Shown here piece by piece: positions 45,514-58,480 of a DNA stretch of 64,000 nt. The stretch is from the NCBI RefSeq assembly GCF_019649055.1, contig NW_026570322.1, forward strand, positions 62,001 to 126,000. Reading direction: 5' to 3'. The first letter of the stretch is position 1, and each line of letters starts with the position of its first letter. The translations under genes and the position numbers were made by a program. The notes beneath the pieces were generated by a model, which was not told the origin of the DNA, searched no databases, and saw only the letters and a program-made list of their open reading frames with translations. The DNA comes from Paramacrobiotus metropolitanus (taxonomy: Eukaryota > Tardigrada > Eutardigrada > Parachela > Macrobiotidae).

Positions 45514-48312
45514 TTATACATTAATCAAGAAATCCATTTTTCCTTCGAAAGTTTTGAAATCGTTGGTGTTGCTGTATGTGATGGTTATGGTAGGATCCAT
45601 AGCTTTACACACTGGGCATGTATCCGTCGGGCGAAACATATCTGCAGAAAAAACTCTATCAGCTAATTGTAATTGAGAAAGTGGGAAATCAATAATTATT
45701 GCAGGACTTGCAATTCGTGAAACCCCATAAAGGTCACTCGGATAATTTAGCCATATATGTAGAACACTACGGTAAGACTGTAAAACATAATAGGGCTGAC
45801 AGACTAAATATCTCTAGAACCTCTACATATATGTCTCTAGACTAAATATTTGAGTAAATAATTTAATATTTACCATATTAATCTAAATATGTACAAGCAG
45901 TGTTTACCGTAGTTGAAATACAACTGTGTAATGAAATCCTTTCCAATGGGCTTATTATACTGATCCAGTTGGAAGATACGGAAGTGCATGTGTGCCGGTC
46001 GCCAGCCAGCTAGAATCTCGTAACGCCCCGGAATGACCGTGGATATGGAATAATAGCCATCATCACCGGTGATGATTTTAAGTCGGCAAAACTACAATTA
46101 AATAAAGGATCAGTGATATTTATCTTGCAGGCAGTTTTATGCTCCATATATAACTGAAGTACAACCTACGGTAGTTCACAGATTTCATAAGCAATCTGCT
46201 GCTGTTTGCGGCTTTACGCTAAACGTTGCCATCATCAAATTCAGCGGTATATCTTACCCAGTCTGGATCACTGACGGATGTCGCATTGGTAGCCAGTGTA
46301 AATGGGTCGGCATTTTGAAAGAATGCTGTAAAACGATATTTAATGTGCTAATTAACGTCTTTTACGCATGCTGCTAAGAATAAATACGTACAGCTGATAA
46401 AAAGGTTTACAAAATATAATAAATTTGTATGCTATTAGCAATATTACTGTTATGCTGGCTTGCTGCATGTTAAAACTATCTGTATCGTACTTCACTATAC
46501 GTGCTTCACTATCTATACTTGTACATAAAAATCTCAGTACATTGCGTTGCACAAAATGCATTGTATAACAATTTGCGTACATGGAGTTGGGTTCTGGAGG
46601 GCAGGGGGCACGATACTGTACCATCCGGTCTGATTGGCCATCCACATATCGACCAGCGCTCGTTTGCCGACACCACACGATACATTGTCGGACCGGAAGC
46701 GAATATAGCCGCTAAGCAGCACGCGGTCATCGCGGAAGCCATTAGGACACAGCCAGACCGTCTGATTCGCGGTTGGCGTATACACCGGCGCACCGTTGAC
46801 GTAATACGGTCCGATATCGTCGGCGGCGGTCGGCACACAGGACGTGTTTGACTGGACGATCGACTGCTTCGGTTTGGTGAGGGATTTCAACACTGTCTTG
46901 GGATCTTTCCCCAAATAATACAGAGATTTTGTAATTATTGCACTAGCCGTTGCTGCTGCTTACTGCTCTAGTTTGCAGTGGCCATGTATTTGCAGCATGT
47001 TAATAAATATTTAGCAAGAGTGAGATTAGATTTTTGAAATCTAGTAAGAAATCACCAGAGTAAAAAAGCTAAACCAATGCATCTACTCGTTCAACTTATG
47101 GGAGGGAGTGGGAGTCGTAAATTAACTTGTTGGATTTGGAGCTTTTATTACTGTACTTTACATTTCGTCTGCGGACACACAAGACAGTTATAAATGTGCA
47201 ATAAGAATATTACGGATGATTTTTCATCTTCTATAAACTGCCCGCTCTCAAATTTTTAACTCAGCATTCTCTGTTTTTAATAACGTGCTTATATATCAAA
47301 ATCACATGCGTCTACAGATATATTTGGTGCTCTTATAAAGAAACTTCGTATCTATATTTCTGCAAAGTATTTTAACTCATGCAGTCGTACCTACAGATTA
47401 GCTCTATAGCCTGCTGATGTTTTGAGAAAAAGGTCAAATAAAAAACATTTAAACGGCTACATTTATAAATCAACTCTGATCAGTGTAGATACATTTTACT
47501 AGTACAGTTATAGCAAAGGTCACTGTTAAAAGTACTTTCATCAAATTTCATGCAACCAACGCACTTAATTCTGCCCCCGCTGCGATTCTTACAATTCGAA
47601 GTGGATTTGTACAGTAGTATCTGTTATCTTCGTTAATGGATGTGTATCTGAGATTTTTTTTTAAATGATATTTTATATATATAGGGACGAGCAGCGCTGA
47701 CAGAAACACATTCAAAGAAGAATCTGGGTATCTGTCCATATATTAAATTGTAATAAATCCGTGCGTATGTCGAAATTATTGGAATATCTTGTAACGCTTG
47801 TTCCTTACCGTAACAACACCACGCGTCGTTCGAGCAGTCCATTGATGCGCTGAGCTCCCCTTTAGAGCACTGCTCATCCATATTCTCTAGATCGACACAT
47901 TTGCCTATCTTCCCGGCGGCCGGAAGAGATTTAGGTGCACACGGAATGAGCGACGCACCCCTGACTTCCGGAAAATCTGCGCACAAAAGCAAAACTTATA
48001 AATATAAATTTCAAAAAATTTTCCGTGTTTGTCCATAATTCGTGCTTGAGAATTCAAGACCAGATGATAAGTGTAATAAATGAGAGTAAATGGCCACATT
48101 CTACGTTATTTGTCAGAGATAATCAGACTCGTAAAAAGGTTGCAATGGATACACAGATGACAGAGTTGACAAGGATAATAATTAATGACCTGACTGAAAT
48201 CCATTGACTGCGACGATGCAGTACAAAAGTAATCCAATGCAGATGTTGCTAGCGATGCGATCAATCACCAGTCTACATAAAACATCAGTAATGAAAATAT
48301 TCTTTTCCTCAT
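45514..48312 (-). CDS. Secreted intradiol ring-cleavage dioxygenase, copy 1 (start codon out of frame)
   Basis: Six exons: 48190-48312, 47809-47976, 46581-46904, 46258-46325, 45908-46091, 45514-45641. Exon 1 should encode a membrane-inserting signal (NICIGLLLYCIVAV). Exon 2 is a six-cysteine, WAP-like module (CVDLENMDEQCSK...CSNDAWCC). Exons 3-6 form the catalytic domain: CVPTAADDIGPYYVNGAP, ALVDMWMANQTGWYSI, VIPGRYEILAGWRPAHMHF. The Tyr residues and the H-x-H pair are the non-haem Fe(III) ligands of catechol 1,2-dioxygenases, which open aromatic rings between two hydroxyls. A secreted form suggests detoxification of catechols or dietary phenolics; this is inference from similar spider-mite genes. 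In exon 1 the ATG aligned with copies 2 and 3 (48312) is two bases out of frame with the signal, so the copy needs another start or is damaged. Confidence 0.8.
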
Positions 48313-48479
48313 CGTGTTTATCCCGTGCTTCAATTTAAATGGCAATTTTAATTTGACAAAAATTTGCGATATGCGGGAAGTATGTTAAGAAACCGTAAAC
48401 GTGTGAAAAAACCCATAAAAACGCAAAAGATATAGTCAGCTCTATAAATGCCAGTCAGCAGTTTTCACAATAAGAAAAT

Positions 48480-48700
48480 AGCCGCGCGGAATATGCAATT
48501 TTAGCGGACGAACAGAAGAACACTTACCGGCACGAGTACGGCACGATACGTTGTATTTGTTTGATTTTCTGTTTTTCAGGTGCAAAAGACAAACGGCACT
48601 CGTAAATCTGCCGTTTCCTTATTAGAATGACTGTTTTTGTTAAAACAAAACTTATGTAAATCGCTGACACAAGAGAATTTATATGTTCATGTTCATTATT
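48480..48700 (-). promoter_or_regulatory. Conserved 5' flank of dioxygenase copy 1
   Basis: gcggacgaacag, cggcacga, and caggtgcaaaagaca followed by acggca are shared, in order, with 54480-54700 (copy 2) and in weaker form 58780-58960 (copy 3). The block lies 170-390 bp upstream of the start region in each. Conservation may reflect recent duplication, selection, or both. Confidence 0.5.
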
Positions 48701-48990
48701 AATGTCAGAAAATGTATACATTCTTGATACTTTTGACGAATGCACTCGTGAATTATAATATGCTATGTCCAATTATTTCATCAAAGGATTTTTGATTTTG
48801 CTACAATCTCGCTGATTTATTACTGTCGAAGGTCGAACGAGCGTTTACCGAAGAGAATAAAAACAAGTTAAAGACTTTTCTTATATAAAAAAATAGTAAC
48901 ATCGCGGGTGAATTTGGACAGCTCAACTAACTAAATACTCGTAGTTGGCAAAACATTCTGCTTTTCATTTACGTAATTACGTAATTACAT

Positions 48991-49046
48991 ATAATGGTGG
49001 AATATAATGAGTGCGTTATAACGCACTCATTATATTCCACCATTAT
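48991..49046. repeat. 56-bp perfect palindrome
   Basis: ataatggtggaatataatga gtgcgtta is followed without a spacer by its exact reverse complement. No mismatch. It is followed by a T-run. Confidence 0.95.
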
Positions 49047-51266
49047 TTTTTTTAAAAACTTGGTTACAATCAAAACAGTTACATTTTATGGCAAAATTTT
49101 CATTTTTGAAAAGCATAATCATTTGTTAACGTAATGATATACGAAGAAATATTTTTGCGGCTTCTTGTATGCACATACTATCCACATGGTTGCGGCAGGG
49201 TAATTAACCGTAAACAAATAACCGTTGCTGGTAGTCTGTTAAACTTGGCACTAGTCGTGTCGGCTCAAAATAATTATTGGTCATGCGCCGGTACTATACG
49301 AATTGTTTGAAATAATTCTTACGGATTTGTTGATCTTGACTTTGTGCGAACAATACGCTGTACAGATCTATGTCTGTTCATTCCCGCGCGCGTAAAAAGT
49401 GCATAATTAGCGGAAATCAGATTATCCGTGACAGCGCTCTTTAATTTTGCTCATGAACTGTGCTGATCCGACTATGATAGCGTCAACACTCACCACAACA
49501 ATCATACACATGTATGCAACAATAAGTGCGGCGCGCTGCACGTGTATTGTACTACTGCCGCTGACGTTTGCCGCGTTTAATAAAAGCAAGGCAGATAAAA
49601 CTGGCTTTAGTGTATGGTGTCTACACAGTCCATTTGCATTTTGAAGTCCTCGGATCGGAGCGACCGCAAGCTTAATCAAATGCATAATCAGAGCATCTCA
49701 TTGCATATTGCCACCGCATCTAAATTGTGTTGTTCGACCACAGTGGTAAATTAATCGTAAGTTCGTGTACAGTACACGTTTCTCGTACTCGCAACATTTC
49801 ATTCATTTAGCCAATCAAAATTAAGAGTTGTAAATATTTTTTACTGCAAAATTCAGCAAAGTTTGCTCAAATGCTAAGAAACGCAAGCTTTGGATAGACA
49901 AGATTATTTTTTAAAAATATACATATTTTAGACTAATAAGATAACCGAAATGCCGACAGAAGAAGCGAACTGCATCAGTTGCATATATATATACCACCAA
50001 ACAGTAACCATTCCCGTCATCCCCTTCCGAATTATTTGATTCACTTCGTAATAGTGTAAAAAACTCTGTAATAGTGTAAAAAATTCTGTAAATTAAAACC
50101 TTAAATAGCAGCAATCTAAAGACAACTAGAATTGGTGTCCCAATACTGAGAAAAATAACCAGCATTATAGAGATCCAACCGCATAATGTATTGATAGCAT
50201 AGAGCGAATTTTCATTTTTGTAGCAAATAAATGACTATTACGTAATGACCGAAAACAAAAATAACTTTAACGTACGATGTACGAATTCATACAGGCAGTT
50301 TCATAGAAATTTAACCGCATACTGCGTCTACAATATGTTGTAACACAAAAGTATAGATTTTAATTTTTATTATAGACACCAAATCATGGGAAAATCGTAT
50401 ACTGCGAAGTATCACTGTTGGTATTGAGAGCAGAAAACAAAGAAATAATTTGTTTGCAATTCGTACAGCTAAATTGCAACAACCATTCCAATAATACACG
50501 TGTCGTATGTGATCCCACGTTGGATCTGAATAATGTTATCGTACAATCGATACCGAAAAGAACTCTTCAGCGCGTTTCTGGCTGCAGAAGCAGGGAATGA
50601 GCGACTACAGAGCCTGTTTACAAAACTTCCCACCTTGACCACAGGCTCTTAGTACAATTCTCCCTAAAGTAAGGTCTGTAAATTTTGAACGCCGTCGGAC
50701 CGAAATGGCACCGTTTTTTCAACCAGCAGAGCTTCGTTAGCTCTATCCTTTCGGCTTGCTCCGCGGTGGCTCCGGCGCTCACGAAAGGACGACAAACATA
50801 CGAGGCCGCCAGTGCGGCGACGACGGTAACGTCCGGGTTTACCTTACTCGCGCCCACGGAAAGATTGTGATGACATAATACGCTCTGTTAGGATCTTTCA
50901 CGACAAACCTTTTGGCTTCGTTCTACCTTCGTGCTAGCCGACTAGATTTAATTCGTCAAGTAAAACTTGAACTCCCCCTTCCGGACTTTCCCCTTCCCGA
51001 TATAAGGTGCAATATTCGGGTATATGCACAGGCACTTTGGCTATCGGGCACTGATACAGTGATACATATACCGGGTCACTTCCCTTAAAAATTAAGCTAC
51101 CGCAGCCGTATTGTTCCAAACTTTAAAATGCACCTATGTACATCTGTTTATGTAATTGAGTAACGGTACTTCGTAGTCGACGAAAAATAAAAAGTAATAA
51201 AACATGACAAGTACGATTGTACGCGCAAGAAAGAAGCTGCTTATTATACTGTAAATAGGCAGCATT

Positions 51267-54200
51267 TTAAACATTTATCAAAAAGTCCATTTTTCCTTCG
51301 AATGTTTTGAAATCGTTGGTGTTTGCATATGTCACGGTTATCGTTGGATCCATGGCGTTACACCTTGAGCATGCATCCGTTGGCCGGAATATATCTGTAC
51401 AAAAATCGGTTTAATTTAAGACAACTGTTTACGGTGGAGTCCGTCAACGAACATCCATCTGTTGTCTGATGTAAAACAGTGAGCTTTCGCAGCACATGTA
51501 AATTCATACTTACAATGTTAATCGCATTACACCTATAAGGTACTGATAAACCGCTGCAAATCCGTACCGGCCTTAAATCAAAGGTCACCCGGATAATTAA
51601 CTGCACGCACATATGCTAAGAGTACAGAGTATTAAAAAAAAGTAGCAACGGCGAAGCTAAAATTATAGCATGGATCGGAAATATTGTATAAGCTAAGTCT
51701 TTGATACGTCAGGCTAACCGCTGTCGTATATATGTATTATTCTATAGCAGCTATTTACCGTAATTGAAATACACTTGTGTAATCAAGTCCTTTCCAACAG
51801 GTTTGTTGTACTGATCCAGCTGGAAAATACGGAAATGGACGTGGGCCGGTCGCCAGCCTGCAAAAAGCTTGTAGCGCCCGGGAATAACCGTGGATATGGA
51901 ATAATAGCCATCATCGCCGGTGATGATTTTAAGACGGCAAAACTACAAAACCAACCCAGTGATATTATAATTTTTATCGTTCAGGTAGCAATAAATCTGT
52001 GCTGTGTATGTACGGACTACAAGTAGTTACAGTGAATTAAGGCTTAGCGCTGTCATTCATTGATTACCCAGTCTGGATCGTTGGCGGATGTCGCATTGGT
52101 AGCCATCGTAAACGGACCGGCACTCTGGAAGGCAGCTGTAAAACCACTTCGCTCAATGTTATAAAATTCAAATTCATCTGACTCAGTTTTACTAGCATTT
52201 TTTATTTATATTCTATTTAATGTTTCAGACAACACTGCATGCATTGGCCATAATACAGAAAAAGTGACTGAAAAACACTATGCAATATACGTAAAACTAC
52301 TAATGCGCGACGATGTTGATTTGTAAACATGTTATTTATTTAGTTTTGCGCGCATTTAATGCAGATTGGGATGATGGAGGTCATGCGTTACTTTCAATGA
52401 TAAACATATGTATTTCTTCATATATTTTTATTGTACTAGCATAAGCGGAAAACGTAACGAATAATTTGCGATAATTTGCGAAAACAAAATATCATAAACG
52501 ATTAACATGCGTACGTGCATATTATGTTTGATCACTACTTTGATGTGCAAAAAAGTTAATAATAAATGTCCCTTGTGCATGTGTTTCTACTGTTAATCTT
52601 ATTACGTTTCCTAATATTAGGGAGTGGTAACATTGTCGTACTTGGAGTTGGGATTTGGAGGGAAGGCGGTACGATGCTGTACCATCCAGTCTGATTGGAC
52701 ATCCACAAATCTACCAGCGCTCGTTTCCCGACGCCACACGATACATTATCGGACCGGAAGCGAACATAGCCGCTGAGCAGCACGCGGTCATCGCGAAATC
52801 CATTGGGACACAGCATGACCGTCTGGTGTCCGGTTGGCGTGTACACCGGCGCGCCGTTGACGTAGTAAGGACCAAGAGTGTCGCCAGCGGTCGGCACACA
52901 GGACGTGTTCGAATGGACGGTCGACTGCTTTGGTTTGGTGAGGGATTTCATCACAGTCTTAGGATCTTTCCTCAAAATCCAATACAGAGATTTACTAATA
53001 ACAATCATTTATGATAATTTCTTTGGGTAAATTGCGCCAGGGAATACGCTTTTGTAATGGCATATAATTGTATGCTGTGCGGTCTGCAATGTGCTCATCA
53101 GGTGCAAGTGGCATTATTATTGAAATTTTGTCATTGTACATGTCTATTTTATTACGATATTGTTGCTTAACTGTAACACATAATTATCTCTGCTAATCTG
53201 GCGTAGTTACTAGAAACCCTGTTTTGTACGGCTGGCCGAATGTTAAGCAAAAGTAATCAGTTACCGTAAATTCTTTCAGTTATAAACTGTAAACATCAAT
53301 TAACAGTGGTTTGGTTTTTAATTGAAGCGGTGTCTTGAACGATAAAACAACATTCCGATACTGCTTAGATTCTATTAAACGAGACGATACTTTGGACTTT
53401 GTACTTTACATCTTATACTTTATAATTTATACTTTATTCAGCGAACTATATATAATGGATAAACGCGCAAAGCACAAAATGTACACCTATCAGAGTTCCG
53501 CGAAACGCATTTCACCTCCTTTACTACGCACTCGTTAATGCTTATATACGTCACCTGCTCGTGCTTTGCAAAAAAGGTCGAATCAAATCGCAGTATCTGG
53601 ATTACTTTATTTATGATTCTACTTCCGGTATAGGAAGATGTCAGAATGTCAGACATAGCGAAGGTCACTTACTTCTTCGAGCCTTATATACAGACAGAAG
53701 CAATACTATATAACTATGGTCTAAGATGCTTCTTTTCCAAATTTATTACTTCGAAAGTATCATACGCAGTCTATAATAGGCGGTCTATAATTAATAAGCT
53801 GCCCATAACAAAATTTCAAGAAGATGTTTTAACACTTCTTACCGAAACAACACCAAGCGTCGTTAGAGCAGTCCAGAGACGCACTGAGCTCTCCTTTAGA
53901 GCAATGCTCATCCATGCTCTCCACACTGACACATTTCCCTATCTTTCCGGCGGCCGGAAGTGATTTTGGAGTACACGGACTGAGCGAGGCGGCCGTATCT
54001 GGGCACGAAAATAAAAAAGAAAAGACGAATATTAAAAACATCTTCCGGGTTCATTCGTTATCCATTCATCAGAACATCAAAACCTAATAGTGTGTAAACG
54101 AAAGTACTCCATACACTGTTCGACAGAAATATCCAGATTTATTTAATAAGTCATATGGGAGTCGAGCTGATGCTCATTTTATTATATAATTACCTGGCTG

Positions 54201-54314
54201 CAATCCGGCGACTGCCGCAATAAAATGTAAAAATAATCCAATGCAAATGCTGTTGCAAATGCGATAATGTGCCAAGCTGTGTAAAGCATCGACCAAAATA
54301 TTTTTGTTTGTCAT
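51267..54314 (-). CDS. Secreted intradiol ring-cleavage dioxygenase, copy 2 (intact)
   Basis: Six exons: 54194-54314, 53843-53998, 52642-52965, 52068-52135, 51759-51942, 51267-51394. All phases agree from ATG 54314 to the stop, giving about 326 residues. Start MTNKNILVDALHSLAHYRIC is followed by the hydrophobic ICIGLFLHFIAAVAG. The WAP-like module has CVSVESMDEHCSK and CSNDAWCC. The catalytic domain has CVPTAGDTLGPYYVNGAP, ALVDLWMSNQTGWYSI, GDDGYYS, PGRYKLFAGWRPAHVHF and the C-terminal end TNDFKTFEGKMDFLINV. Exons 3, 4, 5 and 6 have exactly the same lengths as in copy 1 (324, 68, 184 and 128 bases). Bacterial and fungal relatives lack such introns, so the gene is integrated and old in this genome. 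The Cys-rich module may hold the enzyme in the extracellular matrix or a secretion; its role is unknown. Confidence 0.87.
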
Positions 54315-54479
54315 TGCAATGTAGTTAATCCGTAGTTGACAAGAAATATTTAATCCGATGAAAATCCTCAATATGTTGAACGTATGTTAAGAAACCTAAT
54401 ATGCCTGAGAAATCCCATTAAAACGCGAAGTATACACTGCGTTCTTTAAATAACCGTCACCATTATTTAAAACAGTAAA

Positions 54480-54700
54480 ACCGCCCCACTGATTTTTAGC
54501 GGACGAACAGAGGAAAACTTGCAGACACGATTACGGCACGAAACGTTTTCATTTGCCTGGTTTTCAGTTTCTCAGGTGCAAAAGACAGACGGCACTCATT
54601 AATCTCCAATTTCCTTATTACTGTGGATTGATATTTTCGTAGAAACCAGTCTTATGTAAATTACTGACATGAGTAAAATTATGTTCTGTATTAAAATTTA
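54480..54700 (-). promoter_or_regulatory. Conserved 5' flank of dioxygenase copy 2
   Basis: Matches 48480-48700: gcggacgaacagagg, attacggcacgaaacgtttt, ctcaggtgcaaaagacagac. Since this copy is the intact one, this is the best candidate for a working promoter of the array. Confidence 0.5.
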
Positions 54701-56301
54701 TAATTAATGTCAAAATTTGGTCTAGTTTTTGGGTACATTGAAAGCATATCTTTTAGCAAATCAGTTTGTGAATATGCTAATCACAATATTTATATGATTT
54801 AATTTTGTTGATTCATTACTTTACTTACTGATGTAACAATTTCAATAAATATTTATTACTCATAGCCTAACACACTTATGAATGTGAATATGTGATTAGC
54901 GCTGGTATCGTCAGCGCTAAATAATGAAATCATGCGCAGGTAATTTGTGTAACAACTGTTAGAATTAGAAATACCGGTAATTGTGGGTTACGGATTAGTT
55001 GCCCTTGACTTTGTCCACACAATACGCACTACTATGACTGTCCGATTCCGAGCTCGTTAAAACCCGATCATTTAAGCAAAAAAAGGTTACGCGCCACGCA
55101 TAACCTGTTTGATTTTTCTAATTAACTGTGCTGATCCGACCACGATAGTGACAAGTGACAACAGTCACCGCAACACTTAAGTTTACCTCTATACGTACAT
55201 GATACACATTCAACAATAAGCGTTGACGCGCACGTGTGGTGGACTACTTCCGCTGACTATTACCGCGGTAAAAATTCGCGGTGTAGATAAATTTGGTTTC
55301 TTTGTGGGTTATTCGAAATGAAGTCCTCGGGCAAACTCGTCACTGACGCTGTATGTCCGGAGTTAGATTAAAGCTACGCATTTCGAACGGATAGGATGAC
55401 CATCCGCACGACAATCATCGGTTTTCAATATACTTAATTATACAACCGCATGCAGAGCAAAATGGAATGGAAAGTGGCCATTCGGAAAAAATGTGACTAC
55501 GTTTTGTGATAATTAAGTTGTGGCGAGTAGGCTTACTACGGGTAGGCTACCAAAAACATTTGCCATTTCGGAGGATATTTTAGTAAAATTTCAAAGTAGT
55601 GACTAATTCTTACCGCACCACGTACTCTGTATACTTGTATCAAACTCTGTCTTTTCCCTTCATGCCAACGCCACCCCACAGAGCTGCCCATTCTGTTTTC
55701 AGCATGCAGAAATCGCTCAGAACGATTATTACTCGTATATTGCTTTTACCTGGATGTTCTGAAAATTTTCTGCAGTACAGCTGGATCTAATACGAATTTA
55801 CTCTTTGGCAGGCCAGTAGGATTTAGGACTAAATTCTATTTTCTCGTGTAAAGTCCAGTGACATATTCTGCGTTCGAGAACGGAACGGTCTCGAACTGTA
55901 CCTGACTTCCGGTAGAATTGTGTCAGATGCACACTGAAACTGGCAGAAGGACAAATGGCTCAAATGTTTCTTTTTTTTGGTGAGAAGTATGTAGTTTCAT
56001 TATACACATTGTGACACTTCCACTACGGTTTAATGGATGTCTGTGCAAACCTGTATACTCCACCAGAGAAAGATAATCGCCATCGCATTATATATGGTTA
56101 CAAACAACTGCTATTTCCGTACCGGCCGTAAATAAAAGGACGCTCGGATATGTAAATAAGCTGCACATAACACTACGTATATTATGAGCGTAAAAGGAAG
56201 CGGCACCGACGAAGCTGTATATTTAATTTAACAACCTAATCCTTTAGTATGTCAAGCCGATCGCTAACATAGATTATTTATTATGTTAAGCAGCTACTTA
56301 C
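54701..56301. other. Spacer between dioxygenase copies 2 and 3
   Basis: 55121-55265 repeats the block at 49451-49570 (actgtgctgatccgac, cgcacgtg, ccgctgac). 55760-56040 repeats the region 3' of copy 1. 56060-56180 matches the intron before the last exon of copy 2 (ccgtaccggcc, gctgcacat), but the last exon itself is absent. Confidence 0.5.
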
Positions 56302-58480
56302 CGTAATTAAAATACACTTGCGTAATAAAATCTTCTCCAATTGGTTTATTATACAAATCCAGTTGGAAGATCCGGAAATGCATATGGGCCGGTCGCCAGC
56401 CATCTAGAAGTTGGAAGCGCCCGGGAATAACCGTGGACATGGAGTAATAGCCATCGTCACCGGTTATGATTTTAAGACGGCAAAACTACAAAAAACATAA
56501 ATGACATTTATCATTCAGGCTTTACCATAGTATGGTACTACGTGTACCGATAATAAATATGGAATAATAACGGTGTATCTTACCCAGTCTGGATCGTTGA
56601 CCGATGTTGCATTGGTAGCCGTTGTAAACGGACCGGCATCCTGGAAGGTTGCTGAAAAACCACTTCGCTGGTGCCTCTGGTTTATCAGAATTTGCTGCTT
56701 ATAAAATAATTATTTAATTTTTCACGCAACATTGCAAGCATTTGCTAAAATCCAGACGGGTACATTTACAAATACGGACACACATACGGGTACATTTACA
56801 AATACTATATGTACAGAAAACGCACATATGCGATTTCCGGCTGCTGTATTACAAACGTATTATTCATCGACTGTCGAGTTTCATTTTTAATTTTTATGAC
56901 TATACAATAAAAATATATTAAAACTATGTTATTCTTAGTGGAAGCAACTATATACCCACAGCACTACAATTTTCAAAGTGCAAAATTAATCAATCATACA
57001 TCTGATACGTATGGACCCATTGTTACGCTAACTGCTGTGTAATAAAATAATAATCGCAGTCCCAGGTGCATATGTTTTTCATACTCTAGGATCTCAGTAC
57101 GTTGCGTGGAATTAACTAAACCTTGGAGAATAATCAAGTAGTCGTACGGGGAGTTGGATTTTGGAGGGCAGATGGCACGATACTGTAGAATCCGGTCTGA
57201 TTGGCCATCCACATATCCACCAGCGCTCCTTTCCCGACACCACACGATACATTATCGGACCGGAAGCGGATATAGCCGCTCAGAATGACGCGATCGTCGC
57301 GGAAGCCATTGAGGCACATGCACCATCACCGTCTGATGCCCAGTTGGTGTGTATACCGGCGCACCGTTGACGTAATACGGACCAAGACCGTCGGCGGCGG
57401 TCGGCACACAGGACATGCTCGGTTGGAACTTGGAAGGGCAACTGTTTTTCTTCGGTGGTGGATTTCATCAATGTCTTGGGATCTTTCGTCAACAACCCAT
57501 ACAGATTTTACAGATATTATTTTATTAATAATAAAAAATTATGATAATTCTTTTTGGGTAAACTTCTAAAGAGGGCCAGTACGTTAAGTATTGTTTACTT
57601 GTGTAAGATATTAATGGCATTATCATTACAGATAGAACATTAGCGCACTATGCGTTTATTTACTCGTATTTAAGCTGTTGTACTGTAGCTCAACTGGAAT
57701 AACTGCATCTGCTAGCTCTTGCTGGAAACAACAATTAATAGCGAAAAGGGTTGCATGTGTTGTTCCCGCGCGATAAATCCTGGAATGTATATTGTCGGCT
57801 CCTATCTTAAAATGGATCAAATAGTACAGCCATGTGATGGGATTAACTTATTCATGATGCTGCTTCCGGTATGGGAATCTAACGAAGGTCAACTCTGGGT
57901 GCATTTCGAAGCAGTGGTGCAAGCAGCAGTGGCTCATGCGTTTCTTTTAAAAATTTATCGACTGAAAATTGATTACTGTAAGACGAACTTTAAAATACTT
58001 CATTCAATGAAGTTCATTGGATGGTCACGGTCAAATTAAATTATTATCAGCCCATACATCTTCCGAAATTCTAAGAAATTTTTTAAATCTGTTTTTTACC
58101 GTAGCAACACCAAGCGTCACCGAAGCAGTCCGCAGATTCACTTAGCTCCCCTCTAGAACACTGTTCATCCATACTCTCCACATTGACACATTTCCCTATC
58201 TTTCCTGCGGCCGGAAGTGACTTCGGAGTACAGGGACTGAGGGATGCGCTCTTGGCTACCGATGCATCTGCACACGGAAATAAAAAAAATCAACCCAAAT
58301 GTTAATATTATGTTATATGCTTAATATAGATATTCGCAATTGATGCTTAGCTTAATGACCTGGCTGAAAGCCATCAACTGCAAAAATACGGAATAAAAAT
58401 AATCCCATGCAAATACTGTTGTAGATGCGATATTCTACCAAGCTGCATAAAACATCAACAAAAACATTTTTGTTAGTCAT
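56302..58480 (-). pseudogene. Intradiol ring-cleavage dioxygenase, copy 3 (decayed)
   Basis: Five of six exons are recognisable: 58360-58480, 58100-58267, 57148-57482, 56584-56651, 56302-56485. Exon 1 is intact with an in-frame ATG (MTNKNVFVDVLCSL) and a hydrophobic core, and the WAP-like exon keeps its cysteines. Exon 3 is 335 bases instead of 324: about seven extra bases before the VPTAADGLGPYYV part and four before NGFRDDR, so the frame changes twice and is not restored. In exon 5 the motif reads PGRFQLLDGWRPAHMHF, with Phe where the other copies have the presumed iron-binding Tyr. The last exon is missing. A transcript could still be made from the shared 5' flank, but an active enzyme is not expected. 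Confidence 0.8.

Follow-up and report, generated by a model that had tools for sequence, protein, structure and literature searches.

Tandem intradiol dioxygenase genes with a six-cysteine module, probably of microbial origin, in the tardigrade Paramacrobiotus metropolitanus

The DNA considered here, referred to as the window, is a stretch of 64,000 nucleotides from the tardigrade Paramacrobiotus metropolitanus (assembly GCF_019649055.1, contig NW_026570322.1, positions 62,001 to 126,000). On its minus strand, window positions 45514-58480 carry three intradiol ring-cleavage dioxygenase genes (PF00775) in tandem. Ring-splitting enzymes of this type otherwise occur mainly in microbes. An earlier sequence-only reading had proposed such an array, and it was borne out, with PF00775 matches above the curated cut-off for copies 1 and 2. 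Contigs of the assembly are denoted below by C numbers and fetched loci by L numbers. The features of the three copies, in window coordinates, are as follows.

54194..54314, minus strand: copy 2 exon 1, with the start codon and a hydrophobic leader, ending in phase 1
53843..53998, minus strand: copy 2 exon 2, six-cysteine module, a phase 1-1 exon
52642..52965, minus strand: copy 2 exon 3, first dioxygenase part (first Tyr ligand, ..GWYS)
52068..52135, minus strand: copy 2 exon 4, additional segment, a gap in the five module-less paralogues aligned
51759..51942, minus strand: copy 2 exon 5, containing the second Tyr and both His ligands in the catalytic core (PGRY..RPAHVH)
51267..51394, minus strand: copy 2 exon 6, with a CxxC segment at the C-terminus and the stop codon
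48190..48312, minus strand: copy 1 counterpart of exon 1, without an in-frame ATG
47809..47976, minus strand: copy 1 exon 2, module
46581..46904, minus strand: copy 1 exon 3
46258..46325, minus strand: copy 1 exon 4
45908..46091, minus strand: copy 1 exon 5
45514..45641, minus strand: copy 1 exon 6 and stop
58360..58480, minus strand: copy 3 exon 1
58100..58267, minus strand: copy 3 exon 2, module
57148..57482, minus strand: copy 3 exon 3, interrupted by 7-nt and 4-nt insertions
56584..56651, minus strand: copy 3 exon 4
56302..56485, minus strand: copy 3 exon 5, PGRF instead of PGRY

Copy 2 (54314-51267) alone has all six exons intact. In copy 1, exons 2-6 are intact and form an open frame. 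Exons 3, 4, 5, and 6 are equally long in these two copies (324, 68, 184, and 128 nt), and exon 2 measures 168 nt in copy 1 and 156 nt in copy 2. Exons 2-6 of both copies join via GT..AG introns into open reading frames (ORFs), and the five introns have phases 1, 1, 1, 0, and 1. The acceptor of exon 3 was placed between AAAG and ATCC because in each of the three copies this position matches the donor of exon 2, which is in phase 1. Six exons with matched phases had been claimed for every copy; the phases and the lengths of exons 3-6 hold for copies 1 and 2, and the full six are found in copy 2 alone. The claim of a signal peptide stands in the same partial way. Exon 1 of copies 2 and 3 encodes a hydrophobic stretch, and the copy 1 counterpart (48312-48190) lacks an ATG in the homologous frame and, judged by eye, is one base short near its start relative to copies 2 and 3. 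A zinc-finger match to the copy 2 leader (E 0.028) was under the cut-off and was discarded.

Copy 3 had been read as intact, and the sequence does not support this. Its exon 3 has no continuous frame, the second iron-ligand Tyr is changed to Phe, and its exon 6 was not found, a search with exon 6 of the window ORFs of at least 25 amino acids giving copies 1 and 2 only. Because of the two insertions in exon 3 and the missing exon 6, copy 3 is probably a recent pseudogene. A paralogue on C71 (L001:2718-3112) also has a frame break in exon 3, from decay or assembly error, and some breaks may therefore be assembly errors.

Between copies 1 and 2, the ratio of nonsynonymous to synonymous substitution rates (dN/dS) is 0.108 for the module (dS 0.73) and 0.14 for the catalytic part (dS 0.58). 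These values show that both copies are under purifying selection. Copy 3 compared with each of the other copies gave 0.09 and 0.15 for exons 4-5 and 0.08 and 0.14 for the module. The readable parts of copy 3 are thus as constrained as the other copies, and its decay, if real, is therefore recent.

Spliced copy 1 (exons 2-6) matches PF00775 with an E-value of 4.7e-15 (55.9 bits) and spliced copy 2 with 1e-13 (51.6 bits), both above the curated cut-off of 27.3 bits. A seven-member profile compared with the PDB gave 39 rows at E up to 10, the best at 4e-18. All of these are intradiol dioxygenases except the last, NOMO2 (0.073). In an alignment of seven members that omits copy 3, C71, and C33, the residues taken to be the iron ligands (Y78, Y137, H147, and H149) are identical in 7/7. 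The Arg of RPAHxH and six cysteines of the dioxygenase rows are likewise invariant in all seven. By analogy with the family, the enzyme would bind Fe(III) through the two Tyr and two His and would open catechol-type rings between the hydroxyls with O2. Secretion is suggested by the hydrophobic leaders and the conserved cysteines. Among phages, four Acinetobacter records encode bacterial-type enzymes at 28-29% identity and were set aside as not relevant.

The product of exon 2 is a 44-residue unit with six cysteines in the spacing 13-9-10-5-0. The module exon is present in each copy, as had been claimed; the motif SNDAWCC given for it occurs in copies 1 and 2 and is FGDAWCC in copy 3. A genome-wide search with the module returned 118 rows at E up to 10, and 38 of the 118 were below 0.01, including the three window modules. 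When an iterated profile was run over the window and the 16 loci fetched first, most of which had been picked for such matches, it found 120 domains, the profile's own training members included, compared with one in ten residue-shuffled sets combined. Because of this difference, the similarity among the modules is not chance. The spacing 12-9-10-5-0 is found in 70 of 108 distinct full modules. At C26:1004457-1031926, a module array extends over several open frames, with up to 23 modules in a frame of 1392 amino acids. Thr-rich runs were seen by eye in five of ten module frames of the second locus batch. The module is an abundant domain of this genome and is not private to the dioxygenase genes. 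Further module rows lie at C1:751-780 kb. At L014:5034-7577 (C62), near single six-cysteine modules, a long open frame contains GQPM repeats and a stretch rich in Thr and Pro.

The module had been described as WAP-like. CLIP and WAP are extracellular domains of small size, rich in cysteine and with two cysteines side by side, and the module resembles them in these respects. WAP domains have eight cysteines, and the module has six. A Pfam search with one module gave no row. With 25 modules at E up to 10, it gave six unrelated families with one member each, the best at 0.011 (CBM_1 at 0.054). Three long array frames from C26 gave two unrelated rows only, at 0.13 and 0.75, and ten further module frames gave three unrelated rows at 0.051 to 0.097, none above the cut-off. 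Wherever a curated cut-off was printed, the Pfam rows for modules fell below it, and all of these rows were discarded. WAP was absent among the rows of the 25 modules and the three arrays at E up to 10. CLIP was considered from the order of the cysteines and likewise had no Pfam row among the 25 modules and three arrays; the fold search was weak. The module profile compared with the PDB gave two rows that were not significant (E 1.4 and 3.7), and the 1392-residue array had no match there. With neither a significant Pfam nor a PDB match, and with six cysteines, the WAP-like label is not supported. The structure prediction that had been proposed for the module yielded a modest AlphaFold model from the three window rows (predicted local distance difference test, pLDDT, 71). 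Foldseek with this model returned one unrelated and insignificant row (E 3.2), for which VIA gave no Z of 2 or more.

Relatives of the window type were found in the assembly (169.8 Mb, 533 contigs) at C71, C54 (two), C134, C157, C224, and C33, which makes ten members with the three window copies. An additional short match to the catalytic exon at C134:18286-18396 (6.3e-4) is perhaps another member or a remnant. The tree covers 97 rows and 149 of 292 columns; of 149 confirmed bacterial loci, the 80 best were used. The sequences come from this genome, the bacterial loci, and, through the PDB only, other eukaryotes. The tree program flagged the small number of columns and the presence of long branches, including T_C33. 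The ten members form one clade (support 100/99) that stands beside bacterial groups, and the tree resolved no sister of the family among the 80 bacterial loci. The five bacterial loci that matched best, at 37-40% identity, comprise three from Myxococcota, one from Acidobacteriota, and one from an unplaced bacterium. In all ten members, a phase-0 intron, located by eye, lies one residue ahead of the conserved CR, and this intron is therefore older than the expansion. The shared intron and the single clade support an old acquisition of a microbial-type enzyme, as judged from sequence comparison. In this way, two of the earlier proposals are supported: that an enzyme of microbial type resides in the genome of an animal, and that the transfer is old.

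Two PF00775 genes of another type lie at C96:210233-210379 and C96:225328-225489. One of them matches the spider-mite enzyme 6bdj in the PDB at 3.2e-28, and both join it in the best tree (99/98), apart from the window family. Approximately unbiased (AU) tests did not reject trees that grouped the window family with the C96 genes alone (p 0.084) or with both the C96 genes and the mite enzyme (p 0.204). Two separate acquisitions are thus favoured by the best tree and not proved, since the AU tests do not reject the joining. The tree with bacterial and mite sequences that had been called for accordingly gave the single ten-member clade and, in its best form, separation from the mite type, a separation that the AU tests do not demand.

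In the window, the module stands alone on one exon with phase 1 on both sides. Among the ten dioxygenases, it was found in the three window copies and in the C71 gene only; the iterated profile detected none in L002-L008, the loci that carry the remaining members. The four module-bearing dioxygenases form a clade (100/99). In C71, the leader and the module share one open frame. A phase-1 GT follows seven of the eight single modules outside the window, C71 included, and a likely phase-1 acceptor was located by eye, without transcripts, for three single modules (L013, L015, and one in L014). Because the module is a phase 1-1 exon found only in the window copies and C71, and these form one clade, the pattern is most simply read as one exon-shuffling fusion in a common ancestor, followed by tandem duplication at C102. 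Fusion followed by local duplication had been suggested at the outset, and the distribution of the module and its clade agree with it.

It is fairly probable, taking these observations together, that the window genes belong to a group of eutardigrade intradiol dioxygenases, secreted enzymes with non-haem iron and of microbial origin, that carry a host six-cysteine module and have a role in extracellular detoxification. After its transfer, the dioxygenase gene would have acquired introns and spread into several copies. The host module would have been inserted on its phase 1-1 exon in the common ancestor of the window genes and the C71 gene, and the fused gene would later have been duplicated in tandem, with one copy decaying. 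As judged by where else it occurs, the module would most probably anchor the enzyme in, or direct it to, a matrix that is extracellular or mucin-like. The likely role, by analogy with spider mites, would be the detoxification of dietary or environmental catechols outside the cell. A microbial-type gene thus seems to have gained an animal domain through insertion of a phase 1-1 exon, a step often supposed and seldom caught. Several points weigh against this account. The function proposed for the module is read from its contexts, and the AU tests allow the window family and the mite-type genes to be joined. Of the three copies as assembled, only one is intact; no start is obvious in copy 1, and copy 3 is interrupted. 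The constraint on copy 3 means that its decay is recent or that its breaks are partly artefact, and assembly error may enter here, the C71 gene also being frame-broken in exon 3.

The chief competing explanation concerns the role and is possible, if distinctly less likely: the enzyme would act in the animal's own catechol chemistry, such as cuticle hardening, melanin or pigment precursors, or the egg-shell, and the module would place it in the cuticle or another matrix. The long arrays formed by modules elsewhere fit this, as do the Thr-rich and probably extracellular frames in which some modules were seen by eye, and the best tree assigns the window family and the mite detoxification enzyme to different subtypes; diet-derived phenolics are equally plausible as substrates. 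In a broader and more doubtful form, the module would be an undescribed tardigrade extracellular domain of more than 100 copies that builds giant matrix proteins, and a microbial catechol dioxygenase captured by exon shuffling would act on the animal's own catechol-based surface chemistry. A large Cys-module family for which no Pfam model matched makes up long proteins in this tardigrade, and it could bear on cuticle or mucus.

There are three further alternatives. That the array is dying or largely non-functional, with mere remnants kept, would account for the broken copy 3 and the failure to find its exon 6 in the window ORFs, for copy 1 without an in-frame ATG, and for the break in the C71 paralogue; a dN/dS of about 0.1 across both domains of copies 1 and 2, the lack of any stop within their exons 2-6, and the intact copy 2 make it improbable. 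Slightly more improbable is that the dioxygenase and the spider-mite genes trace back to a single fungal-type transfer. The AU values allow it, with the C96 genes alone and with the mite enzyme added, yet the best tree separates the two groups, and the mite enzyme has GRTPHIH where the window family has RPAHxH. Contaminating bacterial or fungal DNA would explain why the enzyme family is microbial, and it is hardly credible given the introns at a common position, the host-genome module inside the same gene, and the spread of ten paralogues over seven contigs, of which the six measured are 0.12 to 1.27 Mb long.

Transferred intradiol dioxygenase clusters in a tardigrade are not new, having been reported in 2017. 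In Hypsibius dujardini, tandem clusters of intradiol ring-cleavage dioxygenases were described and judged to be transferred (Yoshida et al. 2017, PMC5531438). These resemble the window in enzyme class and tandem order; the available part of that account, compared by description only, does not mention a cysteine module, exon structure, or decay of a copy. The DOG genes of Tetranychus urticae are described as multicopy, secreted, and acquired from fungi, and the same authors showed that the enzymes cleave plant phenolics (PMC9167512). DOG (PDB 6bdj) and the window family are both multicopy animal intradiol dioxygenases, and they differ in subtype in the best tree and in their His motif; the mite-like genes of this genome are those on C96. 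Bacterial protocatechuate 3,4-dioxygenase beta-like and catechol 1,2-dioxygenase enzymes (PF00775) share the catalytic core and ligands with the window family. Unlike them, the window family has introns and an N-terminal host module. The six-cysteine module, its abundance, and its fusion were not met in the literature searched, which is no proof that they are unpublished; a literature search on tardigrade catechol dioxygenases likewise returned nothing relevant.

Elsewhere in the genome, C4:2486244-2488563 has two matches to the PF08883 DOPA dioxygenase family (2.0e-26 and 4.7e-24), which are perhaps the DODA1 reported in other tardigrades (PMC13389832). A lipocalin search pointed to three places, and the one frame examined resembles an ordinary fatty-acid-binding protein. 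SAHS is a tardigrade protein family, and a cluster of SAHS-like exons, probably several tandem genes, lies at C3:446414-467166. With SAHS1 (matched to PDB 5xn9) as the query, 23 rows were obtained, 14 of them with E below 1e-4 and with up to 64% identity. Thirteen of these 14 lie at C3:446-467 kb and one on C78.

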